Source: a virus
Virus record (IMG/VR): IMGVR_UViG_3300020213_001038
Coordinates: 1-21,546 of that record
Reading direction: 5' to 3' (one strand)
Length of the DNA stretch: 21,546 nucleotides
Numbering within the stretch: the first letter of the stretch is position 1; each line of letters starts with the position of its first letter. This document shows, in pieces, positions 3,267 to 21,546 of this stretch. The notes beneath the pieces are model-generated. The model made no database searches. It saw only the letters and a program-made list of their open reading frames with translations, and was not told where the DNA came from. The translations under genes and the position numbers were made by a program.

Positions 3267-5530
3267 CGCCGTCGCCTCCGCTGCAAGTCGGCGAAGCTAA
3301 CCCGGTCGCGCTTGGCCGGGGCGGAGCCATCGGTCCCCAGCAAGATCGCGCCCAGCATCGAGGCCGCTACCGAGCAGCCCACGAGGCAATCGAACCAGTG
3401 GTTGTCTCCCCGCTCAGGACGCATTTTCCATTCGTCCACGGTTCGGCCACGCCCCTCCGTCTTCACCCGGTATTCGGCCGTCAGATGCTCGGCGAGCAGC
3501 CGGTGCTGATCGGGCCTCTCGCCGAAGAGCGACAGGCAACTCCGGTCCCCCATCGGCACCGCCAAGCGAGCGTGGACGAACGACTTCCAGTAGTTCGTGT
3601 CGAACACGATATGGCGCACGGCCCGCTTGCCATGCACGTTCGGCATGCGCCAGTTGTGCCCGACGCGGTCGCCGGGCTTGCGTTTGTATTCCGAAAACGG
3701 CTGGCTCGAAGCGCCGACGAACCGTCCGTGGCTCGGCATGACAATTCCGGCGTGCGCCGACTGGCGGCAGAACTGATAGACCACATCGGTGGACGATCCC
3801 CAGTTGGCATCGACGAGACACCTCTCAATCCGCAGCATGGCCCCGTCGTCCCGCCGCCATTCGCGGGCCAGGTACGCGCCCGTGAGTTGCTCGAGGCCGG
3901 CGTAGATTGTCCCCTCCAGCCCAGAAGCTCTCGTCGTTGCCGCCAATGTGTGGCGGGCGTCGCGGAGCGTGAAGTAGGAACGTTGCTGGTCGGGATAGGT
4001 GCCATAGTCGATGACGTAGCCCGTGAAGTCGTCCTCCCAGGCCGCGACCACGAAGAACAAGAGCGAGGCCTGCACGTCGACAAACATCGTCAGGTGGTTG
4101 CACCCAATCGGCACTTCGGCACGTTGCATCCGATTGAATTTGTCGGCGATCTGGTCGGCGGTCAGTTCGTCGTCGGATGCGGTGTCCGCCGGCAGCGGCT
4201 CGTTCTGGTACTCGGCAAAGAACGCGGCCTCGTCCTGCAACTTCAGATTCATCGCGTGCTGTATGGCCGAGAGTTCGTCGTGGTTGAATCGCTCGGGCCA
4301 GGCGATCACCGCGCCAGCGTCCATCGCGTCGCGGTTCTGCCCGTAGAACCCGGTCGCCTCCTCGCCGGCGTTGCCAGCCCGCATGCTCTCGGCGCGAATT
4401 TCCGCGTACCGTTGCCACAGCTTCTCGTCCGTGGGGAACGCATAAACCATCTTGGTCCGCTCGCCATTCCACTCCGGATGCTTGTCGCGGCTCAAAATGC
4501 TGTCCGCCATGTCGCTCGGTCGAATGACCGTACAAGGCATGATGCCGGAGATCTTCTGACCGGGGCCGGTGAGGCCCAACACAGCGCCCGCCAGAATGCT
4601 TTCGCGCGTCGCGCATTGCGAAAGCGAGCGGGCCGACTCGTCCGTTTGCGGATCGTCCAGCACGACGAGCGTCGGCCGTACGGTGTGGCCATCGGCCCGT
4701 TTGTACTTCATGCCACGGATGCGACCGGTGATTCCCGCGACCTTGATGATCGCTCCGCTGGCCCCGCTCCCCGGCATGGTCGGCAAGACGACCTCGCGAG
4801 CTGTCCAGCCGATGTGGGTTCGTTCGCCTTTGTAGAGTTGGCCATTGCAACGATTGGCGATCCCATCGAGCGCCTGAATGGGATAGACAACCTCGGGGAA
4901 ATCCTCCAGCAGCAGATCGTTGCCATCGAGTTCCATCTTGATCGACTCGAGCATGTCCATCGCGTGACCTTCGTCGCTGCCGATCAAGCAGACGAACTCG
5001 CGGTGCCCAAACAACACCGCCCAGATGCAGGCGCACTCGCAGATGGTTGTCTTGCCGCTGCCGCGCGGCATCGCCATCGCAAACAGACCGCCGCGAATAA
5101 CGGCCTGTACGATCTTGGCGATGACCTTCAGGTGGTCTGGCGACCACGGCAGATGAAACGTGAGCGGAAAGTACGACTCGCAGAAGAACCGGAAGTCGGA
5201 GGCCGCGCGAGCCTTGCGGTCGGAGTTCACGACCTCAGGCAGATCGCCGATGTCGCGGCCGGCGATGGCTAGCGCCACGTTCCGCGCCCGAGCGCGGTCT
5301 TTCATCTTCTCATACGGGTCGCTGTCGGGCTCGGGCTTCGGCGCATGTCGAATCTGGACCAGCCACGCGACGTAGCGCAACAGATCGACGTGCCGCGCGT
5401 CGCCGATGCGCAGACCAGCGCGCGTGCGGTGGCGATGCAATTGCCGCTCGTTGATCACCTCGCCTAGCGCGGTCGAGTTGAGCAGACGACAGAGTTCGCT
5501 CGGTCGCAGCTTGCGCGGATCATTCGCCAT
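3263..5530 (-). CDS. Phage terminase large subunit (DNA-packaging ATPase/nuclease)
   Basis: This 755-residue protein is the motor that cuts concatemeric phage DNA and pumps it into the prohead. The ATPase half has a Walker A at MPRGSGKTT (residues 154-162) and a Walker B at TLVVLDDP (287-294). The nuclease half carries acidic residues in the expected RNase H-like pattern: FVDVQ (D485), CLVDANWG (D574) and DNHWFDCLVG (D709/D714). The size is larger than many TerL proteins and nearer the gpA class. Residues 8-60 form an extra wHTH-like module resembling the whole product of the next gene upstream (5520-5759). The start at 5530 follows an AGGGGAA sequence and overlaps that gene by 11 bases. The C-terminus is very basic (RRRRR). 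The call is firm. Confidence 0.95.
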   Translation of the reverse strand: MANDPRKLRPSELCRLLNSTALGEVINERQLHRHRTRAGLRIGDARHVDLLRYVAWLVQIRHAPKPEPDSDPYEKMKDRARARNVALAIAGRDIGDLPEVVNSDRKARAASDFRFFCESYFPLTFHLPWSPDHLKVIAKIVQAVIRGGLFAMAMPRGSGKTTICECACIWAVLFGHREFVCLIGSDEGHAMDMLESIKMELDGNDLLLEDFPEVVYPIQALDGIANRCNGQLYKGERTHIGWTAREVVLPTMPGSGASGAIIKVAGITGRIRGMKYKRADGHTVRPTLVVLDDPQTDESARSLSQCATRESILAGAVLGLTGPGQKISGIMPCTVIRPSDMADSILSRDKHPEWNGERTKMVYAFPTDEKLWQRYAEIRAESMRAGNAGEEATGFYGQNRDAMDAGAVIAWPERFNHDELSAIQHAMNLKLQDEAAFFAEYQNEPLPADTASDDELTADQIADKFNRMQRAEVPIGCNHLTMFVDVQASLLFFVVAAWEDDFTGYVIDYGTYPDQQRSYFTLRDARHTLAATTRASGLEGTIYAGLEQLTGAYLAREWRRDDGAMLRIERCLVDANWGSSTDVVYQFCRQSAHAGIVMPSHGRFVGASSQPFSEYKRKPGDRVGHNWRMPNVHGKRAVRHIVFDTNYWKSFVHARLAVPMGDRSCLSLFGERPDQHRLLAEHLTAEYRVKTEGRGRTVDEWKMRPERGDNHWFDCLVGCSVAASMLGAILLGTDGSAPAKRDRVSFADLQRRRRR

Positions 5531-6951: not shown

Positions 6952-8268
6952 TCACGCGGCTACCTCCTCGGCGGCCTTGCGTTCCGCCTTCCGCCCCGTG
7001 AACTTCTCCCACCGCTCGACGATCACGTCGCAATACGGCGGATCGAGTTCCATCAGAAACGCTTTGCGAGTGGTTTGTTCGCAGGCGATGAGCGTCGAGC
7101 CGCTGCCGCCGAAGAGATCGAGCACGTTCTCACCAATGCGCGACGAATACTGCATCGCCCGCACCGCGAGCTCGACGGGCTTCTCCGTGAGGTGAACCAT
7201 CGACTGCGGGTTGACCTTCTTGACGTGCCACAGGTCGGTGGCGTTGTTCGGGCCAAAGAACTTGTGTCCCGCGCCCAGCCGCCAACCGTAGAAGCAGATT
7301 TCAAACGCACCCATGAAGTCCTTGCGCGTCAGCACGGGATGCTGCTTGTCCCACACGATGCCTTGGCTGAAATACAAATCGTGCTTCTTCAGAAACGGCG
7401 GGTAGTTGCCGAGGTTGGCGTACCCGCCCCAGATGTAGAATCCACGACCGGTTTCCAGCACGCGGGCCATGTTGCCGAACCAGGCGTCGAGCAATTCATC
7501 GAACGCTTCGTCGGTCACGAAGTCGTTGGCCAGCGGCCGATCCTTCGCCCGCATTTTTTTATGCGTCGCCTTCGCCTTCTCGGGGTGGCGCTCCAGGTCA
7601 AACTTCTGGTGGTGCTTGTTCGGATTGGTGAAGCTGCTGTTGCCGGCCGCGATGGCGTTGTTGCTGCGGGGCTCGACCTTGACGTTGTAGGGTGGGTCCG
7701 TGTTGACCAGATGAATCACCGCGCCGTCGAGCAGCCGGTCTACATCCGCTGGCTTGCTGCTATCGGCACACAGCAAACGGTGGTCGCCTAGAATCCAAAG
7801 ATCGCCGGGCTGAGTGATGGCCTCGTCGGGCGGCTCGGGAACGTCATCGGGGTCGCAAAGCCCCTCGTTCAAATCGCCGCCGAGCAGCTTGGCCAGCTCG
7901 TCCTGGTCGAAACCGAGCAGACCAAGGTCGTAGTTCGCCGCCTGCAAATCGCCGAGTTCGATCGGCAGCAGATCGTAATTCCAATCCGCCAGCGACGCCG
8001 TTTGGTTATCGGCGATCCTAAACGCCTTGATCTGATCGGGCGTCAGATCCTTGGCGACATGCACCGGCACTTTCTCCAGGCCTAGTTTCTGCGCGGCCTT
8101 GAATCGGGTGTGGCCGCACACGATCACGCCGTCAGTGTCGACGACGATCGGTTGGCGGAACCCGAACTCGCGGATCGAGGCCGCGACGGCATCGACCGCG
8201 TCATCGTTGAGCCGCGGGTTGTTGGCGTACGGCTTGATCTCGGAGAGGGGGCGAAGTTCGATCTTCAT
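6952..8268 (-). CDS. ParB/Srx-domain DNA methyltransferase fusion
   Basis: The product (438 residues) joins two domains. Residues 1-~125 are a ParB/sulfiredoxin-like nuclease fold: MKIELRPLSEIKPYANNPR at the start, then VIVCGHTRFKAAQKLGL (49-65), the conserved GxxR box, and KAFRIADNQ (81-89). From ~155 there is a DNA methyltransferase with LVNTDPPYN (188-195, the catalytic DPPY) and, later, TEKPVELAVRAM and LDLFGGSGSTLIACE (383-397, the SAM-binding loop). DPPY before FGGSGS is the beta-class order; this class methylates adenine N6 or cytosine N4. The start chosen is ATG 8268, where the ParB domain begins, with AAGGA seven bases upstream. The longer frame encodes unrelated residues. The likely role is modifying phage DNA to evade host restriction. 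No partner restriction enzyme is adjacent. Confidence 0.93.
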   Translation of the reverse strand: MKIELRPLSEIKPYANNPRLNDDAVDAVAASIREFGFRQPIVVDTDGVIVCGHTRFKAAQKLGLEKVPVHVAKDLTPDQIKAFRIADNQTASLADWNYDLLPIELGDLQAANYDLGLLGFDQDELAKLLGGDLNEGLCDPDDVPEPPDEAITQPGDLWILGDHRLLCADSSKPADVDRLLDGAVIHLVNTDPPYNVKVEPRSNNAIAAGNSSFTNPNKHHQKFDLERHPEKAKATHKKMRAKDRPLANDFVTDEAFDELLDAWFGNMARVLETGRGFYIWGGYANLGNYPPFLKKHDLYFSQGIVWDKQHPVLTRKDFMGAFEICFYGWRLGAGHKFFGPNNATDLWHVKKVNPQSMVHLTEKPVELAVRAMQYSSRIGENVLDLFGGSGSTLIACEQTTRKAFLMELDPPYCDVIVERWEKFTGRKAERKAAEEVAA

Positions 8269-8431
8269 GAGTGCGTCCTTGTCGGAAGGGGTTGAATGAA
8301 AACAGCAGGCACACGAGCAGTGCGAACCAGAGCAGGTTCCAGATGAACCTCTCCAGGCCGCTGGCCGTGGTGACGGCCAAGGCGTGCCAGGAGGTTTCCC
8401 GGCGAGGTTCGCGTGGCAGTTCCGGTGACAT
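8201..8431 (-). CDS. Small membrane protein overlapping the methyltransferase start (76 aa)
   Basis: The ATG at 8431 has one of the best ribosome-binding sites in the window, AGGAGG seven bases upstream. The protein is a charged N-terminus (MSPELPREPRRETSWHALAV), one hydrophobic helix at about residues 30-47 (FIWNLLWFALLVCLLFSF), and a polar tail. The last 68 bases overlap the methyltransferase gene in a different frame, so the tail after the helix may be constrained mainly by that gene. It could be a single-pass membrane protein, or a leader whose translation couples to the methyltransferase. I do not recognise it. The evidence is the ribosome site plus the hydrophobic segment. Confidence 0.5.
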   Translation of the reverse strand: MSPELPREPRRETSWHALAVTTASGLERFIWNLLWFALLVCLLFSFNPFRQGRTHEDRTSPPLRDQAVRQQPAAQR

Positions 8432-8636
8432 GGCAATTCCTCCTGAGGGGTTCGGACAACGAAAACAAACTCTGTCTAGGCTGGCGGCTGTTCCCGCAGA
8501 CCTCTCCTGACGACTTTCGTCCGGGAGTACCTATTGGCCGGCTGGCAGGTGCGGTTTGTCTCTGCCACTTTGGCACTCGCCCCGTGCGCCCCAGGGCGGT
8601 CCGCAGGTGCAACGACGCGGTCGGGCGAACAACGGT

Positions 8637-8688
8637 GGCCAAGGTCGCCCACCATCGCCAACGTGGGCCAACCGTGGCGACCGTGGCC
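8637..8688. repeat. Inverted repeat with internal tandem GCCAACGTGG copies
   Basis: GGCCAAGGTCGCC (8637-8649) is the reverse complement of 8676-8688 (GGCGACCGTGGCC) with one mismatch. Between the arms are tandem GCCAACGTGG (8657-8666) and GCCAACCGTGG (8667-8677). It could be an operator, a replication-initiator site or a cruciform-forming sequence. Confidence 0.6.
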
Positions 8689-8799
8689 GCGAGCGTTGGC
8701 TCGTGCCAGGGGCGGGAGCAGCCCTCGTTCTTCTTTCGCCCCCCTCCATACGCGCACGCGCTTTCGCGCGGGTGCTGGCAGGTGTGGGTGGGTACGGGT

Positions 8800-8823
8800 G
8801 AAAGAGAGAAAGAAGAGAGAGAG
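8800..8823 (+). other. 24-base purine tract
   Basis: All 24 bases are A or G, dominated by GA and GAA steps, directly following a GGTGAA motif in plus orientation (8797-8802). Such mirror-like polypurine runs can form triplex or easily melted structures. No coding explanation is visible. Confidence 0.5.
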
Positions 8824-8857
8824 TAGTAGTTTTCCTGTATGTATTGGCTCATCTTCA

Positions 8858-8960
8858 TTCACCCTTCTTTCACCTTGGTTCACCATCCTTCACCGCCGCC
8901 GGCCGGTTCCCGGCCGGACTTCTTTCACCAGCGGGCGTTGTTTCACCCAGTTCCTTCACC
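8858..8960 (-). repeat. Seven directly repeated GGTGAA iterons, four of them at helical spacing
   Basis: On the minus strand GGTGAA occurs seven times in the same orientation; plus-strand left ends are 8858, 8869, 8879, 8889, 8924, 8942 and 8955. The first four are 11, 10 and 10 bases apart, one per DNA turn. The longer form GGTGAAAGAAG is perfect twice (8864-8874 and 8919-8929); others fit GGTGAANGA. The array overlaps the last codons of the primase gene, whose own TGA lies in a GGTGAA copy. Phased direct repeats of this kind are typical of iterons or cooperative regulator sites. Confidence 0.7.
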
Positions 8961-11240
8961 CCCTTCGCTGACCAGTCGATAGGCTCGCTGCGGCCGGCCC
9001 GCCGTCGTCTGCGTCACCGTGGACACGTCCCCTTGCTGTTCGAGCGTGGTGAGCAGCTCCTGGAACGTCTTGGCGTCGATCTTCATCCGCTTGAGCAGGA
9101 CGCTGTGCGCGAGTTGCTGCTCGGGCGCTTCGCGCAGCTTGCGAATCAGCTTCAGGCACTCGGCGTGAAACGGGTTCTCGGCCACATGGTTGTGGGCCAT
9201 GAACAACATTCGCCGCGTCTGGTGCAGCAGGAAGTCGGTCGCCCACCGCACGGCCGCGACGTTGATCCGTGGCGTTTCATGGCGGACGCTGATCGCGTGC
9301 AAGATCGCCAGCTTGCGAATCTGCTCTGGGACGCGCCCCCACACCGTGGTGCCGACGGGATCGCCACGAGCCTCGGCGCGGGCATACTCGGACTCGGAAG
9401 TCTGCCTCGCGTCGGCCAGCAGCACGCGGGCGTCGTCGTCGGCTTCGACGATCCGGGGTTGCGGATGCCAGGTTTCGAGATTGCCGGCGCCGGGGCAGAA
9501 CTCGGCCCACCAGCGGGCCGTCTCCATCACGCGCGGCGGCGGGTCGATGATGCCTGGCTCCTGGCCCACGCTGCGCGGGCCGCTTTCGACGATCACCATG
9601 CGGGCGAAGAAGCCGTTGGTCAGCATCCGCTCCGACAGCGCCTCGTAGTAATGCGTTGGGATCGCCGTGCCGTAGACCACCAGGCACGGCTGATCGATCA
9701 CGCCGGGCGGCTCCTTGCCGGCCTTGCGCCGCATCGGGTAGATGCTGTTGGCCGCCGAGTACATCGTCAGGAGCGTGCCCAGAATGTTTTCGTGACGGGC
9801 GTCGCGGGCCTTGTTGATCGACTGCAAGAGGCCGTCGATCTCGTCGGTCTGGAAGAGCATGGCCGGCGTGCCAAACAGTGAGTCCTGAATGCCCTCGCCC
9901 GAGGCGAACTTCTCTCCCAGCGCATTCACCAGCCCCACGCGGTGCATGACGCACGTGTTGACCTTCCGGGGCCAGTCTTTGCCGACCGACGAATAGGCCA
10001 GCGCCAGCAGATAGAGGTTCGTCCGGTTGTCGGCCTGGTCGCGTACCTTGCGGCCGGCGAGCACCGCCTGGAGAGCCATCGCCCCGCAGAACGACAGCGC
10101 CGCGTTGGGATAGGGCGCGGTCGCCAAGCAATGGTCCATCACCTCGGACACGAAACCGGGCACCCGGAACAACTCCGCCGGCACCGGACCCGGATCGGGC
10201 CAGGTTTCCGGCAATGCGGCGGACTGCGGGGCCGGCGACAATACCGCAGTGCCATTGCAGACGATCCGCGACAGGTCGACGTTGCCGCCATCGGCAACTT
10301 GTCCAAAGCCGTCTGCTCGCAGCGCCGCGGCGGCCGCTGCAAAATCGCCCGCATGATCCAACAGCGTATAGACCGAGAACGGGGCGTAGGCCCGATCTGG
10401 CTCGAACGGCGCGGCGTTCGACGAAAACACGTACAAGATTCCATTCCTGAGCGTCGCGCTCCAGCCCTGCTCTTTGCCGGGTCGTCGCCAGTATTCGTTC
10501 TCGCCACCGCGCACGAGTTGCCAACCGTGGCGGCGCAGCACTTCTCGTATCTCGCCCCGCTCGTTGAAGTCGTCACCTGGCCGACCAGCAACCGCTGCTG
10601 CACCACGCGCCCGCTCGGTCGGTGGGATCGCCTCGTTGAGCGAGCAGGCCGCCTCGATGAGTATGTTTCGCTCGGCCTCGCTGACAACCGGAATCTGCTC
10701 GAAAATCCCCTGCTCGACGCGGTAGCCGGGCGTCGGGGCGCAGAGGAATAGACCTCCTTCGCCACGCGTCTCGATCAGCGTACAGAGAACCTCGAAGTGA
10801 TCGCCGACACGGCGCGGCACGTAACGCTTGCCGGCGATGATCACCGGCTCGGCGCTGGCCACGATGATGGTGCGTTGGGCCAGCTTGCGATTGCCAGGCA
10901 CCGGCGCTGTACTGCGATACGCCACATGTCGCCCACCGGACTGCGAGCTTTCGATCACGAGTCGCTCGACCAGCCCCGGCGACTCGGTCGCTATCAGCTC
11001 ACGCCAGGCGTCGAACAATTCCCCGGCGTGGTCGAAGTCGATCATCTCCAGGTTGGCCGACACCGCGCCGGCCAGAACGCACAGCGGCGGGCCGTCGGCG
11101 AACCACGCGGCCACCTGCCGCTCGGTTGGCAACCGGCGCTGATACTGTTTCCAGCCCGACAGCGCAGGCCGCTTTTCCGCGAGAATTGCGGGCAGCACGC
11201 ACAAGCCGGCACGGAGATAGGAGGTGGCGGTGTCGATCAT
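8943..11240 (-). CDS. Primase-polymerase (AEP) / DUF3987 helicase-like ATPase
   Basis: The protein (about 765 residues) combines a priming domain with a motor-like domain. The N-terminal ~200 residues match bifunctional primase/polymerase enzymes of the archaeo-eukaryotic primase fold: catalytic MIDFDH (about residues 66-71 from the chosen start), then the nucleotide-binding SGGRHVAY (~101-108) and a basic YVPRRVGDHFEV stretch. The C-terminal ~400 residues resemble DUF3987: NLYLLALAYSSVGKDWPRK contains a degenerate Walker A (SSVGKDW instead of GxGKS/T), followed by MLFQTDEID as Walker B. The very C-terminus ends in a probable winged helix (LLKRMKIDAKTFQELLTTLEQQG). It probably starts and drives phage DNA replication. 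ATG 11240 is chosen two bases after the helicase stop; a TTG at 11246 is the alternative. Confidence 0.9.
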   Translation of the reverse strand: MIDTATSYLRAGLCVLPAILAEKRPALSGWKQYQRRLPTERQVAAWFADGPPLCVLAGAVSANLEMIDFDHAGELFDAWRELIATESPGLVERLVIESSQSGGRHVAYRSTAPVPGNRKLAQRTIIVASAEPVIIAGKRYVPRRVGDHFEVLCTLIETRGEGGLFLCAPTPGYRVEQGIFEQIPVVSEAERNILIEAACSLNEAIPPTERARGAAAVAGRPGDDFNERGEIREVLRRHGWQLVRGGENEYWRRPGKEQGWSATLRNGILYVFSSNAAPFEPDRAYAPFSVYTLLDHAGDFAAAAAALRADGFGQVADGGNVDLSRIVCNGTAVLSPAPQSAALPETWPDPGPVPAELFRVPGFVSEVMDHCLATAPYPNAALSFCGAMALQAVLAGRKVRDQADNRTNLYLLALAYSSVGKDWPRKVNTCVMHRVGLVNALGEKFASGEGIQDSLFGTPAMLFQTDEIDGLLQSINKARDARHENILGTLLTMYSAANSIYPMRRKAGKEPPGVIDQPCLVVYGTAIPTHYYEALSERMLTNGFFARMVIVESGPRSVGQEPGIIDPPPRVMETARWWAEFCPGAGNLETWHPQPRIVEADDDARVLLADARQTSESEYARAEARGDPVGTTVWGRVPEQIRKLAILHAISVRHETPRINVAAVRWATDFLLHQTRRMLFMAHNHVAENPFHAECLKLIRKLREAPEQQLAHSVLLKRMKIDAKTFQELLTTLEQQGDVSTVTQTTAGRPQRAYRLVSEGGEGTG

Positions 11241-11242
11241 GC

Positions 11243-12904
11243 TCAAAATGGAATCTCGTCGGGGTCGTAACTCCCAAAGTCGCCAGCGGGCAGCGGGGCC
11301 GGCAGCTGTCCCAACCTGTGGGCGACAATCCGGTCGTACTTCTCGCCGGCAATGGTGCGCACGGTGATCTGTTCGGTGTGGGCCAATCCGCCGCCGCCAG
11401 CGATCTCAACGGCCCGTTCCGCCGAGTCGGGCACCGGATCGGGCGAGCGCCTCCGCCACCACGCCTCGGCCTTCTGCCGGGCGAAGCCGTCGTGCTCTAC
11501 GCAGATGAATTCGCTCTGCCAGTGGTTGAGCCCCAGGCGATAGTCGACGCGCATCGTCCGAGGCGCATCGGGCGGGGCGGCGCGTTTCGTATGGACGCTA
11601 TAGGAGACCTCGTGGACTTCGTACTCGACATCGGTCACCTGGCCAGAAAGAATGCCGGCCTCGGTCGCCTTGGCCTCGTGCTTTTTTCGCTCGGGCGGCG
11701 GGAACGCGTACCCGCACTGCGGGCACGTTGTATAGCCGGCGGCGATCAGCGCCATGCACTTGGGGCATTCCTTGACCGGCGCTTCGCCGTTGCCGCTGCC
11801 GGCCGGTTTGATGCGCAGATCGTCCACCGGGCCGTGCCGAATCACGTTGCCGCCAAAGTCGAGCACGAGACAATTTCGCTTCTCGGCGTGCAGCCGAAAG
11901 CCGCGCCCGACCATTTGGTAATAGAGTCCCGGCGACATCGTTGGTCGCACCAGCGCCACGCAATCGATGTGCGGCGCGTCGAAGCCGGTGGTTAGCACGT
12001 TCACATTGCACAGGAACTTCAACTCACCTCGCCGGAACCGGCCAAGTACGGCATCCCGCTCCTTGGTCGGCGTCTCGCCGCTGACGAAGCCGCAGTCGAT
12101 GCCGTGCTTCTCGGCCAACACGCGCACGATGTGCTGGCCATGCTGGATGCCGCTGGCGAAGATCAGCACGGCGTGGCGGTCGCCGGCGTAGCCTACCGTC
12201 TCGCCGCAGGCGGCCTCGACGAGCGAGTCCTGGTCCATCAGGCTCTCGACTTCGTCGGCCACGAACTCGCCGGCCCGCACGTGCAACTGCGTCGTGTCGA
12301 TCTTGTTAGTGCCGGCCTTGGTCACCAGCGGGCACAAAAAGCCGTCGCGGATCAGTTCGCGGACGCCTACCTCGAAGCAGATGTGGTTGAGAAAGCCGTC
12401 CGGTGTGCAGATCGGCCCCGTCTTCAGGCGAAACGGCGTGGCGGTGAACCCGATGATGCGGACGTTGGGATTGAGCACTTTGGCCTCGGCCAGGAACTGC
12501 CGGTACATGCCGTCTCCTTCGGGCGGAATCAAATGCGCCTCGTCGACCATGATCAGGTCGAATGCATCGAGCTCGCAGGCTCGCCGATAGATCGACTGGA
12601 TGCCGGCGACGATCACCGAGTGCGACGTGTCACGCCGCTTGAGCCCCGCTGAGTAAACGCCGTAGGGCACCTCGGGGCAGACGAGCCGCAGCTTGTCGGC
12701 AGTTTGCTCGAGCAGCTCTTTCACATGGGCCAGGATCAACACGCGCCCGTTCCACGCGCCGACCGCGTCCTTACAGATTGACGCCATGATCGGCGTCTTG
12801 CCGCCGGCGGTCGGCACCACGGCGCACGGGTTGTCGTCCCGCGTTCGCAGGTGCTCGTACACGGCGCTCTTGGTCGCGTCCTGATAAGGTCGAAGTTGGA
12901 GCAT
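11243..12904 (-). CDS. SF2 DEAD/DEAH-box helicase with inserted zinc ribbon
   Basis: This 553-residue superfamily 2 helicase begins with LRPYQDA (a Q-motif-like start). It has Walker A VVPTAGGKT (29-37), DEAH box MVDEAH (118-123), motif III FTATP (152-156), and motif VI YYQMVGRGFRLH (327-338) preceded by LTTGFDAP (303-310). After the motor comes a zinc ribbon, CPKC...CPQC (cysteines at about 379, 382, 393, 396), found in a class of phage replication helicases. The remaining ~150 residues are variable and end DEIPF. It should remodel DNA or R-loops during phage replication or recombination. The start codon abuts the RusA stop (TAGATG), showing tight coupling. Confidence 0.94.
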   Translation of the reverse strand: MLQLRPYQDATKSAVYEHLRTRDDNPCAVVPTAGGKTPIMASICKDAVGAWNGRVLILAHVKELLEQTADKLRLVCPEVPYGVYSAGLKRRDTSHSVIVAGIQSIYRRACELDAFDLIMVDEAHLIPPEGDGMYRQFLAEAKVLNPNVRIIGFTATPFRLKTGPICTPDGFLNHICFEVGVRELIRDGFLCPLVTKAGTNKIDTTQLHVRAGEFVADEVESLMDQDSLVEAACGETVGYAGDRHAVLIFASGIQHGQHIVRVLAEKHGIDCGFVSGETPTKERDAVLGRFRRGELKFLCNVNVLTTGFDAPHIDCVALVRPTMSPGLYYQMVGRGFRLHAEKRNCLVLDFGGNVIRHGPVDDLRIKPAGSGNGEAPVKECPKCMALIAAGYTTCPQCGYAFPPPERKKHEAKATEAGILSGQVTDVEYEVHEVSYSVHTKRAAPPDAPRTMRVDYRLGLNHWQSEFICVEHDGFARQKAEAWWRRRSPDPVPDSAERAVEIAGGGGLAHTEQITVRTIAGEKYDRIVAHRLGQLPAPLPAGDFGSYDPDEIPF

Positions 12905-14872: not shown

Positions 14873-15439
14873 TTACTCTTGGCCAAATCCCGCCCGCTCG
14901 AAGTGCTGCCGAATGACGACCATCGCTGCCCGAACCTTGCGCCGCGAAAGTCCCGCTCGGGAGCCGCCCAGGATTCGGCAGCAGATGTCGCGGTGTTCGG
15001 GCGACATGGATTCCATCGCGGCGGCGAAAGCTTCTGCGTTCTCAAAGATCGCCGTGTTGGGCTGGGACAAGCCGCCGGTGCGTCGGTCCAGATCGGCTAA
15101 CGAGATCGTCGCCCAAAGCGGTGTTGGCGGCTCGCCCCGCACCTCCACCATCACCTCGAGCGATTGAATCTCGGTGCCATCAGCCGGCGCTCGCTTCAGC
15201 CGGCCACGGTCCCGCAGCAACATCGCCACAGCCGAGTCGACGACTCGGGCTATGAACGTGTTGAGGGATGATCGCGTCGGATCGAAGTGCTGAGCCTGAC
15301 GCAGAAGGTGCAGATTCAATTTCTGCACAATGTCGCCCTCGTCGGACCGGCTGAAGCCGGGGCGACGAATCAGTTGGCGGGCCTTCACCCGGATCAGGGT
15401 GCTGGCGTACTCGTTGCAAACCTCGTTTGGTGCCTGCAT
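14873..15439 (-). CDS. Sigma-70-like factor, phage-encoded (188 aa)
   Basis: This looks like a compact two-domain sigma factor. Residues about 11-85 resemble region 2: YASTLIRVKARQLI, RSDEGDIVQKLNLHLLRQ and FDPTRSSLNTFIARVVDSAV, close to the 'EDLVQEvfLkl...FDPerGsl.TWl' layout of sigma-70/ECF proteins. Residues 145-183 (SMSPEHRDICCRILGG, GLSRRKVRAAMVVIRQHFE) have the position and shape of region 4, a helix-turn-helix that reads the -35 box. It is the first gene of the early operon, so it may redirect host RNA polymerase to phage promoters. The start at 15439 is preceded by GGAGGT, with a short 4-base spacing. The match is by pattern; low similarity leaves some doubt. Confidence 0.75.
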   Translation of the reverse strand: MQAPNEVCNEYASTLIRVKARQLIRRPGFSRSDEGDIVQKLNLHLLRQAQHFDPTRSSLNTFIARVVDSAVAMLLRDRGRLKRAPADGTEIQSLEVMVEVRGEPPTPLWATISLADLDRRTGGLSQPNTAIFENAEAFAAAMESMSPEHRDICCRILGGSRAGLSRRKVRAAMVVIRQHFERAGFGQE

Positions 15440-18631: not shown

Positions 18632-18985
18632 TCATTGCTCCTTGAGCTTTTTGATTTGTTCCCGCAATTGCCGAAGCTGAACGGCGGAAAGACCGCTCGC
18701 CTCTCGTAGCAGCTCCGGCATCTCCGTCGGCTGCTGCTGAATGATTCCAGACAGGTCTTCAGGCACGCGGCCGGCCAGGCCGGTCCATTCATCAGGGTTC
18801 TCCCCCAGTAGCTCTGCCATCCTTTTTACACGATCCGCCGTCGGCGGCATGACGTTTTCTTGCTCGACCTGCGATAGATAAGTCGGACTTACACCGACGA
18901 GCTCCGCAAACTTGCGCAAGCTGAACTTCTTTGCAAGCCGCTTTTCACGGAGCAGTCGGCCGAAGCTGATCTGCTGTTTGGTCAT
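18632..18985 (-). CDS. XRE-family helix-turn-helix regulator
   Basis: The 117-residue protein is a lambda-Cro/CI-like regulator. Residues about 8-62 contain FGRLLREKRLAKKFSLRKFA, ELVGVSPTYLSQVEQE and RVKRMAELL, the standard XRE helix-turn-helix with recognition helix SPTYLSQVE. The remaining half is helical and charged (QLRQLREQIKKLKEQ at the end, a short coiled-coil-like helix) and could mediate dimerisation or be the peptidase's target. The start overlaps the Res stop (ATGA), so it is translated with it. It probably represses its own operon; no operator can be assigned because the operon's promoter lies outside the window. Confidence 0.93.
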   Translation of the reverse strand: MTKQQISFGRLLREKRLAKKFSLRKFAELVGVSPTYLSQVEQENVMPPTADRVKRMAELLGENPDEWTGLAGRVPEDLSGIIQQQPTEMPELLREASGLSAVQLRQLREQIKKLKEQ

Positions 18986-21546
18986 GGCGAGACTCCCGCC
19001 GAACCTTGTGGGCTAGGTCCATCCATCCGCGCTCCGTATTGCTTTGCCAACCCAATCAGGGTCATGTTTTCGGCGATCACATCGTGCGGAATGAGCACGT
19101 ACTGCCACGGCTTGCCGCCGCACGTTTTTGCATGGTCGCTCGCGTGCTTGCACCATTTTACCGCCGCATCGCGTTTGGCCAGCACAGCCGCCTCTTCCAT
19201 CGCGCTGGACGCCTTCGGCTCCAACATATAAATGACGTCTGCCATTTCGCCGACAAAGTCGGGCTGATACTCTAGATGTTCCCCGTTGGAAAGATAGAAG
19301 ATCTGGAACTGTCCCTTGGCCGGCTTGAACCACTTCAGCGATTCACGGTCCAGGATGACTGACAACTTGCGTTCCGAGTCGGACTGAAATTTCAGCGCGG
19401 GATACAGGCAACGTTGGAAGCCGCCAAAGACGTACTTCGCCATATTGCTCTTGTCGCTGGGTGCATGGCGGAAATCGCGCACCGCCTCCGTGGCCGAGGC
19501 CGTAAAGGCGCACGGCTTGAGCTCGGTGAATCCCTTGCTCACTTTGACTTCGTAACCGGCCGCTTCTTCCCAATAGTGATCCTGCATCTGGGCATGAATG
19601 AACTGGGCAATCGGCGTCTGGAAACAGCGGAGTACCTTGCGCGTATCGTCTTCCGAAAGGTAGCCCTGCAAATGGTTCACGACCTGGCCCGCCAGATCGT
19701 ATAGCAGGTCGGCGTGGTCGTCGTAGGAAACGTCGTCGTAGTCCACCAATCCGCTGACGACGTAGTCCTCCAGGCGAGACTCTTCGATTCCTCCGCGGCC
19801 CATTGCCAGTACTTCGACTTGACCCGTGCGCAGGTGCTGGGCCCAAAGCTCGTCAGATGGCGGCTGGTAGTTCAAAGAACCCAGCTTCAACGAGAATGGT
19901 CGAAATCCCGAGCGCACTTGGCCCGTGGGCACCACGAGAATGCGCGGAATATCAATCGTCTGATCGATAACCATCTGCGCCGTCTTAGCCACGACCGCCG
20001 CGATGTCCACTTCGGCCTCAACACCGGGCAACTGCAATTGGGACGGTCGCAGTTGACTGGCGACCGCCTGGACGACCTGCGCCTGGACCTCCGGCCTTTG
20101 CAAATAGGCAACGCTCGGCACCGTTTGCGGTTGGTTTTCCAGCCGGCGAATCACCTCATAGGCGACCTGCGCGACTTGCTGCTCGGCTGGCGATGTGAAC
20201 GCGGGAACCGCGTTCGTCGGCGCAACCATTGTGCTGGTCGTGGTCTGTGCCGGCTGAATGCCCAACTGGCTGGCCAACTGCGGTTGCGATACGACCGTCA
20301 CCGTCTTCTCGCCAAGCTGCTCGCCGCTCAGCACGACCTGTTGCAGGCGGATCGTCGAACCCGGCTTGTTCGCCTCGTCGATGATCTCCTGAAATTTGTC
20401 GTGGGCGACGATATTGAGCCGGTCAACGGCCATGACGCCCGTCCGTTTGCCGTACGGCAAACGCAGGCCGCGACCGATCGATTGCTCGATCAGAATACGG
20501 GCGTTCGCGGCGCGCAAGGGGACAATCGTATACAGGTTCGTCACGTCCCAGCCTTCCTTCAGCATGTTGACGTGAATCACGATCTCCGTCGGCTCTTCGG
20601 TGCTTTCGACCGCCAGCAGTCGCTGGATCATTTCGTCTTCTTCCGCGCCGGTCTTGCTCGAATCGACCTGGATCACCTTTTCCCGATACCGACCCTCGAA
20701 GAATGTGTCCGATTGGATTAACTGCACGAGTTGGCCGGCGTGCGTTGTGTCGCGGGCGATCACCAGCAGGAACGGCTTGACAATGGGATTGGCCGTTTCG
20801 CGGGCGTAGGTCTCCAGTTCGACCTTCACGGATTCATGAAGACGCACGCCGTCTTCGAGCTTCAGCCGCTCGATCTCGTCAGCCGACATGCCCGCGGGGT
20901 TGAAGTTCTTTCGCGTGACCACCGCCGGCTCCTTGACGAACCCGTCCGCCATAGCTCGCCCCAGCGGATAGTCGAGGATTACGTTCTTGAACGGTATCGC
21001 CCCTTTGCTGGTTTCGACAAATGGCGTGGCCGTCAGTTCCAAGCCCAACACGGGGTTGAGGTCGTTAATAGCCCGCACCCCGGCCGACGCGCGATAGCGG
21101 TGCGACTCGTCCATGATCAGCACCAGGTCGTCCAGCCCGGCCAGATAATCGAAATAGCTCTGGCCGATGTATTCCGAGAGCCGTTTAATGCGCGGCAATT
21201 TGCCGCCGCGAACTTCGCTATTGATCTTCGAGATGTTGAAGATGTTCACCTTGCAACGGGTCAATTGATCGAACAGGTTGCCGGCCTGCGACTCGTAGTT
21301 GTCGCCGGTGACGATGGCTGGCGTGTCGATGGCGAACTCGGCAATTCCCTTAAATACGTACTTGGACGTGTTGGGAGTGAAGTCGACGATCAGCTTGTTG
21401 TAGATCGTCAGGTTCGGCGCGAGCACGAAGAAGTTTCTGAATCCGTGCGCCAGGTAAAGGTAGCTGATAAAAGCCCCCATCAGCCGTGTCTTGCCGACGC
21501 CTGTCGCCAGCGCAAAGCAGACCGATGGGAAGTCTCGCTCGAAATC
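18982..21546 (-). CDS. Type III restriction Res-like SF2 helicase/nuclease (partial, 5' end outside window)
   Basis: The reading frame continues to the window edge without a start, so at least the N-terminus is missing; 854 residues are visible. Walker A is LATGVGKTRL (residues 13-22), the DEAD-like box is IMDESH (144-149), then LELTATP (169-175) and motif VI LIEQSIGRGLRLPYG. The C-terminal end has PDFVGEMADVIYMLEPKA (762-779), a PD-(D/E)xK nuclease pattern with D763, E776 and K778, as in Res subunits of type III restriction enzymes. A Gln/Pro/Ala-rich linker follows the motor. Res normally needs a Mod methyltransferase, which is not in the window and may lie beyond 21546. It could be a Res-like enzyme of another defence type. 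It shares ATGA with the XRE gene. Confidence 0.9.
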   Translation of the reverse strand, partial: DFERDFPSVCFALATGVGKTRLMGAFISYLYLAHGFRNFFVLAPNLTIYNKLIVDFTPNTSKYVFKGIAEFAIDTPAIVTGDNYESQAGNLFDQLTRCKVNIFNISKINSEVRGGKLPRIKRLSEYIGQSYFDYLAGLDDLVLIMDESHRYRASAGVRAINDLNPVLGLELTATPFVETSKGAIPFKNVILDYPLGRAMADGFVKEPAVVTRKNFNPAGMSADEIERLKLEDGVRLHESVKVELETYARETANPIVKPFLLVIARDTTHAGQLVQLIQSDTFFEGRYREKVIQVDSSKTGAEEDEMIQRLLAVESTEEPTEIVIHVNMLKEGWDVTNLYTIVPLRAANARILIEQSIGRGLRLPYGKRTGVMAVDRLNIVAHDKFQEIIDEANKPGSTIRLQQVVLSGEQLGEKTVTVVSQPQLASQLGIQPAQTTTSTMVAPTNAVPAFTSPAEQQVAQVAYEVIRRLENQPQTVPSVAYLQRPEVQAQVVQAVASQLRPSQLQLPGVEAEVDIAAVVAKTAQMVIDQTIDIPRILVVPTGQVRSGFRPFSLKLGSLNYQPPSDELWAQHLRTGQVEVLAMGRGGIEESRLEDYVVSGLVDYDDVSYDDHADLLYDLAGQVVNHLQGYLSEDDTRKVLRCFQTPIAQFIHAQMQDHYWEEAAGYEVKVSKGFTELKPCAFTASATEAVRDFRHAPSDKSNMAKYVFGGFQRCLYPALKFQSDSERKLSVILDRESLKWFKPAKGQFQIFYLSNGEHLEYQPDFVGEMADVIYMLEPKASSAMEEAAVLAKRDAAVKWCKHASDHAKTCGGKPWQYVLIPHDVIAENMTLIGLAKQYGARMDGPSPQGSAGVSP

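Follow-up and report, generated by a model that had tools for sequence, protein, structure and literature searches.

The GGTGAA array that straddles the 3' end of a phage primase gene is very probably a replication origin. Its initiator would be the product of that gene, a PrimPol-type replicase, which would bind the array through its C-terminal winged helix. The origin reading, one of the two offered in the original prediction, is well supported at the level of sequence by the conservation of the array with the primase, by a core and layout resembling those of P4 and PICI origins, and by coevolution of the iterons with the winged helix. Iteron spelling moves in step with the C-terminal tip of the primase across about 100 related genomes, which suggests a natural DNA-recognition code.

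The array lies in a linear, incomplete virus fragment of 21,546 bases, the whole of which was analysed and is here called the window. Its recognizable genes lie on the minus strand and include helicases, HTH, sigma-like, Sak4-like, RusA, PrimPol, ParB-methyltransferase, terminase, portal and head-protease-like genes. The ParB-methyltransferase (6952-8436, minus strand) fuses a ParB N-terminal domain (PF02195, E 2.9e-9) to an N6/N4 DNA methyltransferase, a fusion common in IMG/VR (142 stretches) whether or not the primase is present. The features on which the argument draws are the following.

8943..11246, minus strand: PrimPol-type replicase of 767 aa, the proposed initiator (PF09250, E 1.6e-10; Foldseek 1rni; PHROG DNA primase families)
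8970..9167, minus strand: C-terminal winged helix, residues 694-759, the proposed iteron-binding domain (AF2 pLDDT 84; Foldseek; iteron coevolution)
8994..8999, minus strand: codons for wing residues G750-R751, which predict iteron bases 8-10 (wing-word comparison)
8955..8960, minus strand: iteron 1, GGTGAAGGAAC, in the coding end of the primase (GGTGAA scan)
8942..8947, minus strand: iteron 2, GGTGAAACAAC, containing the primase TGA stop (GGTGAA scan)
8924..8929, minus strand: iteron 3, GGTGAAAGAAG, full word 8919-8929 (GGTGAA scan and word search)
8889..8894, minus strand: iteron 4, GGTGAAGGATG, opening the phased run (GGTGAA scan)
8879..8884, minus strand: iteron 5, GGTGAACCAAG (GGTGAA scan)
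8869..8874, minus strand: iteron 6, GGTGAAAGAAG, full word 8864-8874 (GGTGAA scan and word search)
8858..8863, minus strand: iteron 7, GGTGAATGAAG, closing the phased run (GGTGAA scan)
8803..8857, no strand: AT-richer stretch (about 60-65% AT versus 35-37%; offsets +80 to +140), candidate DNA unwinding element
8797..8802, plus strand: inverted iteron, the eighth copy, GGTGAAAGAGA on the plus strand (GGTGAA scan)
8730..8740, minus strand: degenerate direct iteron, the ninth copy, GGCGAAAGAAG, partner of the inverted iteron
8723..8823, minus strand: possible large stem-loop, weak in the window, with a GC-rich and partly alternating purine-pyrimidine loop

The seven same-strand GGTGAA copies first noticed in this stretch are real (iterons 1 to 7), as is the 11/10/10 spacing of the four at 8858, 8869, 8879 and 8889, and the array does sit at the end of the PrimPol gene, starting within its 3' end and running on downstream. 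GGTGAA occurs 22 times in the whole window against 10.0 expected, a count reached in none of 100 shuffles, and the 500 nt round the primase stop hold eight copies in either orientation against 0.32 expected, with a maximum of three in 300 dinucleotide shuffles. The best iteron word is the 11-bp GGTGAA(A/G)GAAG. At up to one mismatch, all four occurrences of GGTGAAAGAAG in the window fall in 8720-8970, and no second cluster of GGTGAA or GGTGAAAGAAG was seen within this 21,546-nt fragment of the record. The primase stop codon (8943-8945) falls inside iteron 2, while iteron 1 is coding; overlap of the stop with an iteron is common to 26 of 63 relatives. The commonest spacing of same-orientation neighbours is 10 or 11 bp, a phasing that makes cooperative binding, as originally proposed, plausible.

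The initiator is proposed to combine an N-terminal AEP primase-polymerase, a DUF3987-like middle and a C-terminal winged helix. The earlier PrimPol/DUF3987 label stands in its first half, through the PF09250 match; DUF3987 itself went undetected in the window protein and was found in 16/25 of the family alignment. The N-terminal domain resembles pRN1 ORF904, its nearest solved relative (Foldseek to 1rni, E 6.7e-7). For the middle domain, no clear helicase-family match was obtained besides DUF3987, and its model is poor (pLDDT <50). The AF2 model of the C-terminal domain has three helices and a beta hairpin, and its Foldseek matches are generic winged helices, including DNA complexes, with PadR/MarR repressors as neighbours; the P4 origin-binding domain is not among the best 50.

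The array is conserved in related phages. Repeats are present at all 25 primase loci of a viral set that comprises the window together with 24 primase relatives of 55-82% identity, and 23 of them have four or more copies. The original prediction would have been refuted had related phages shown no repeats at this place, and on these counts it was not. The gene ends of these loci carry 166 GGTGAA/TTCACC in 12.4 kb against 8.3 expected, the reversed control word occurring 11 times, and the rest of the same loci carries 171 in 257.5 kb. The layout is likewise shared. In the window, direct iterons are followed by the AT-rich stretch, the inverted iteron and the degenerate direct iteron; an inverted copy stands about 60 nt ahead of a direct copy (interval 42-72 nt) at 47 of 63 loci, and AT excess over the 63 loci (mean +0.20 to +0.22) peaks at +80 to +120 behind the primase stop.

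It is also possible, although unlikely, that the functional element is a large stem-loop downstream of the gene, as it is in pRN1, and that GGTGAA is accessory or merely marks the stem. ORF904 of pRN1 requires no more than a 100-nt stem-loop downstream of its gene (PMC4234260), and it shares with the window protein the PrimPol fold, the C-terminal winged helix and a cis element 3' of the gene. Several relatives do have strong stem-loops (z of -2.8 to -6.4 in L002, L007, L012, L017, L019, L023 and L027), closed in several cases by an inverted/direct iteron pair, and purine-pyrimidine alternation is 0.59 against 0.50 shuffled. However, the stem is on the whole poorly paired outside the iterons (7.2 of 14 versus 5.0 shuffled), the window z of -1.3 is not significant, and the direct iterons are better conserved and coevolve with the winged helix. 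The stem-loop was set aside as the main element on account of the window and relatives alike. pRN1 has no iterons, whereas the window system is dominated by them and its stem-loop is variable. In the same intergenic gap, GC-rich inverted repeats lie at 8622-8703; their 28-nt arms are 71% complementary and separated by 26 nt. A block GGCCAATAGGTACT at 8526-8539 (minus strand, primase stop +403), located after the stem-loop region and before the methyltransferase gene, is also found behind the primase in L006, L012 and L017, and its core CCAATAGG is present in six further loci.

Cellular relatives (80 sampled of 205 confirmed genome relatives) carry at least three GGTGAA in 31 of 76 cases. Many relatives lacking GGTGAA have another iteron in the same layout, among them CGTGACGGATT, CGTGAAGGATT, TGTGAAACGTG, CGGAAAGAAG, GCGGTTTTCT and GCGCAANAGGTT; L233, 77% identical to the window, has one GGTGAA and gGGGAAAGAAGT copies in its place. 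Over 67 non-redundant loci, iteron similarity follows the identity of the winged helix (Spearman 0.78) and hardly that of the helicase (0.22) or PrimPol domain (0.09). The partial winged-helix correlation given the helicase is 0.77, a value reached in none of 500 permutations. With only sites 3' of the stop counted, the correlation is no higher than 0.32 for any 60-residue stretch that ends at or before residue 690, and rises to 0.77 for residues 699-759.

The pattern extends to single residues. Positions 750-751 are located at the hairpin turn of the wing, and iteron bases 8-10 read GAA with GR at these positions (26/32 loci), CTT or CAT with GW (10/10), GAT with TK (9/11), and CGT with GS or GA (three of four loci, the other having CGA). 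At residue 718, Leu goes with base A6 in 57/57 and Met with C6 in 5/6. On a tree of the helicase region, from which the winged helix was left out, wing and word changed jointly in independent pairs at 6:0, 6:0 and 3:0; the first two give p of about 0.03, and the third comprises too few pairs. Applied to held-out loci, that is, methyltransferase-linked loci outside the derivation set, the wing rule fitted 16 of 17, and 12 of the 13 with less than 90% identity to any training domain.

It could be argued that this correlation reflects only the physical linkage of co-inherited neighbouring DNA, with no recognition involved. Iterons and winged helix lie within about 500 nt of each other and move together on the helicase tree, and some of the correlation is due to exchange as one cassette, because the array and the winged-helix coding sequence adjoin. 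L002 and L007, for example, have closely related helicases and different wing-word pairs, and such cases point to a winged helix and array swapped as a unit. However, one word is held in 6-11 copies across about 300 nt, the GR, GW and TK wing types pair with the same words in independent pairs, and the correlation falls steeply just upstream of the winged helix. Linkage alone is thus an improbable explanation. Since many copies share a word and the wing-word pairs are independent, we argue that recognition maintains the match, though linkage adds to the correlation.

Beyond this, the planctomycete phage PrimPol family may have arrived at eight or more origin-word types by small winged-helix changes together with swaps of whole winged-helix-array cassettes, with wing residues 750-751 corresponding to bases 8-10 and helix residues 716/718 to bases 1 and 6; for this reading the case for and the case against seem to us evenly balanced. 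If it is true, origin specificity would be readable from the protein, and the initiator would suffice for locating origins in uncultivated viruses. Diversification may keep co-resident prophages compatible with one another, or help to evade parasites or nucleases directed at origins. At least five such primases occur in one complete planctomycete chromosome, CP087563 (L259, L291, L305, L311 and L312), and some of them have different iterons; this set could offer a test of compatibility-driven diversification. No earlier account of the array was found in the literature, mostly open-access journals, and in two phage papers that contain both GGTGAA and the word primase (PMC3483164, PMC3952083) GGTGAA appears only in ribosome-binding-site columns. 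As far as the search extended, the kind of origin is known and the winged-helix-iteron code is new.

The second reading in the original prediction took the array for a regulator site of the methyltransferase operon. In methyltransferase loci that have 1.5 kb or more of upstream sequence, GGTGAA arrays were present in 16/43 with an adjacent primase, in 0/22 without a primase and in 0/6 with the primase further off. On the L007/L037 contig, about 2.8 kb separate the primase gene from that of the methyltransferase, and the array stays behind the former. The methyltransferase-operator reading is contradicted by these counts and was rejected because arrays track the primase and not the methyltransferase; by its distribution, the array belongs to the former. 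In a wider form, the array would be an operator, bound by a phage repressor or by the winged helix of the primase, that controls transcription of the primase or of the downstream methyltransferase, and not replication. Winged helices also regulate transcription, as the PadR/MarR neighbours of this one illustrate, and the array does lie between the two genes. However, the 3' end of the primase gene is no promoter position; a search of 8300-9100 for promoters of the sigma-70-like type, the one type covered, found none, and no minus-strand terminator was found adjoining the array. Loci without the primase moreover lack the array, whose presence does not depend on the methyltransferase, and the AT-rich stretch and inverted iterons recur, so that an operator of this wider kind is very unlikely. 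That the array is a partition or centromere site read by the adjoining ParB-domain protein is scarcely credible, for although centromeres are often iteron arrays, the same 22 primase-less loci carry the ParB-methyltransferase and have no array, and the iteron word tracks the primase winged helix.

As a replication origin, the array may be envisaged to work as follows. The PrimPol C-terminal winged helix would bind the 11-bp iterons, and the phased run would align several initiator molecules along a single side of the DNA. The adjoining AT-rich stretch, bounded on its far side by the inverted iteron, would then melt, and the ATPase/helicase-like middle domain could assemble there, with the N-terminal PrimPol domain making the first primers. 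GC skew, put forward earlier as a check, was run on the incomplete 21.5-kb fragment, where it gave no usable switch and speaks neither for nor against an origin. The model would extend the P4/PICI origin plan to tailed Planctomycetota phages with a PrimPol/DUF3987 replicase and may supply a rule for finding such phage origins without culture. The many natural winged-helix-iteron pairs would form a panel for studying site selection by winged helices and change of origin word.

Among known systems, P4 offers a close parallel. In the GenBank record of P4, repeats resembling GGTGAACAGT carry the label 'ori type 1 repeats'. In ori1 a trio at 10/11 bp precedes an inverted copy, which is followed by another pair, and crr is found some 46 nt downstream of the alpha primase gene. 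Shared with the window are the GGTGAA core, the phasing of about 10/11 bp, the inverted copy after a trio (as in ori1) and a cis site directly 3' of the primase gene (as in crr). P4 alpha has a winged-helix origin-binding domain, according to a passage of PMC4234260 that cites Yeo 2002. P4 has two separate cis sites, ori1 and crr, where the fragment analysed shows one cluster. However, the P4 word ends in CAG(T) where the window word has AGAAG, and the iterons of the window do not match the full P4 iteron GGTGAACAG. P4-type alpha is also built of Toprim, D5_N/DUF5906 and Pox_D5, in contrast to the AEP PrimPol and DUF3987-like domains here: a search for the P4-type domain set returned the full set in a P4-like alpha, only Prim-Pol in the window protein, and DUF3987 in its relatives. 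In an unbiased scan for three phased GGTGAA, the matches listed mostly have a P4-like layout; the neighbours identified include a P4-like alpha, D5/Pox_D5, VapE and Prim-Pol/DUF3987 proteins, several matches having no primase nearby.

In PICIs the origin follows directly on the 3' side of the initiator gene and has an AT-rich region between two sets of iterons, an organization stated in 2018 to be known in no other bacterial replicon (PMC6092414), and SaPI Rep reads its iterons with a C-terminal domain (PMC7581432). The window has the same position and plan, its second set being one inverted and one degenerate copy, and coevolution lends indirect support to a C-terminal domain as the candidate iteron reader here too. 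The difference is that the window belongs to a tailed phage with its own terminase, portal and PrimPol-type replicase: PICI satellites are marked by a helper-supplied virion, and the window itself encodes a terminase gpA nuclease domain, a portal and head protease-like genes. Judged from these comparisons, the window system is one that would work like P4 and PICI origins, and it is placed outside the P4 alpha family because it was compared with the P4 domain set and the full P4 word and matched neither.

In the Vibrio cholerae PLE, the origin covaries with the DNA-binding domain of RepA and the two are exchanged together as modules, for which selection by an origin-directed nuclease has been argued (PMC8263062). 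The cassette exchange proposed here resembles these modules; however, PLE uses RepA_N, long semi-palindromic iterons and two module types, as against a winged helix, 11-bp iterons, many types and a residue-level pattern. The SCCmec helicase Cch2, whose C-terminal domain binds AAGTG direct repeats (PMC7581432), likewise has short iterons directly behind its gene, but works with a separate A-family primase-polymerase and belongs to another initiator family.

Of nine cultured phages whose primases are distant (22-32% identity), three have arrays behind the gene and six show no clear array by the method used. The array of Arthrobacter phage ChuckDuck is clear and that of Sinorhizobium phage AP-16-3 weaker. 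Moraxella phage Mcat10 follows the same plan with another word, GCAGACA at +3, +12 and +23 and inverted at +33. In this phage (L435), GCAGACA has nine copies against 0.18 expected, directly behind a primase-like gene whose stop is at 3552, and just before and around the annotated attL.

The host of the window phage is probably a planctomycete, since cellular-genome relatives of the primase are nearly all Planctomycetota. Elsewhere in the window, a sigma-70 region 2 protein (14873-15439, minus strand; PF04542, E 9e-7) is encoded in the phage early region, and a large ResIII/SNF2-like helicase with a weak C-terminal endonuclease match (18982-21546, minus strand; PHROG 15427) adjoins HTH and IrrE-like genes.
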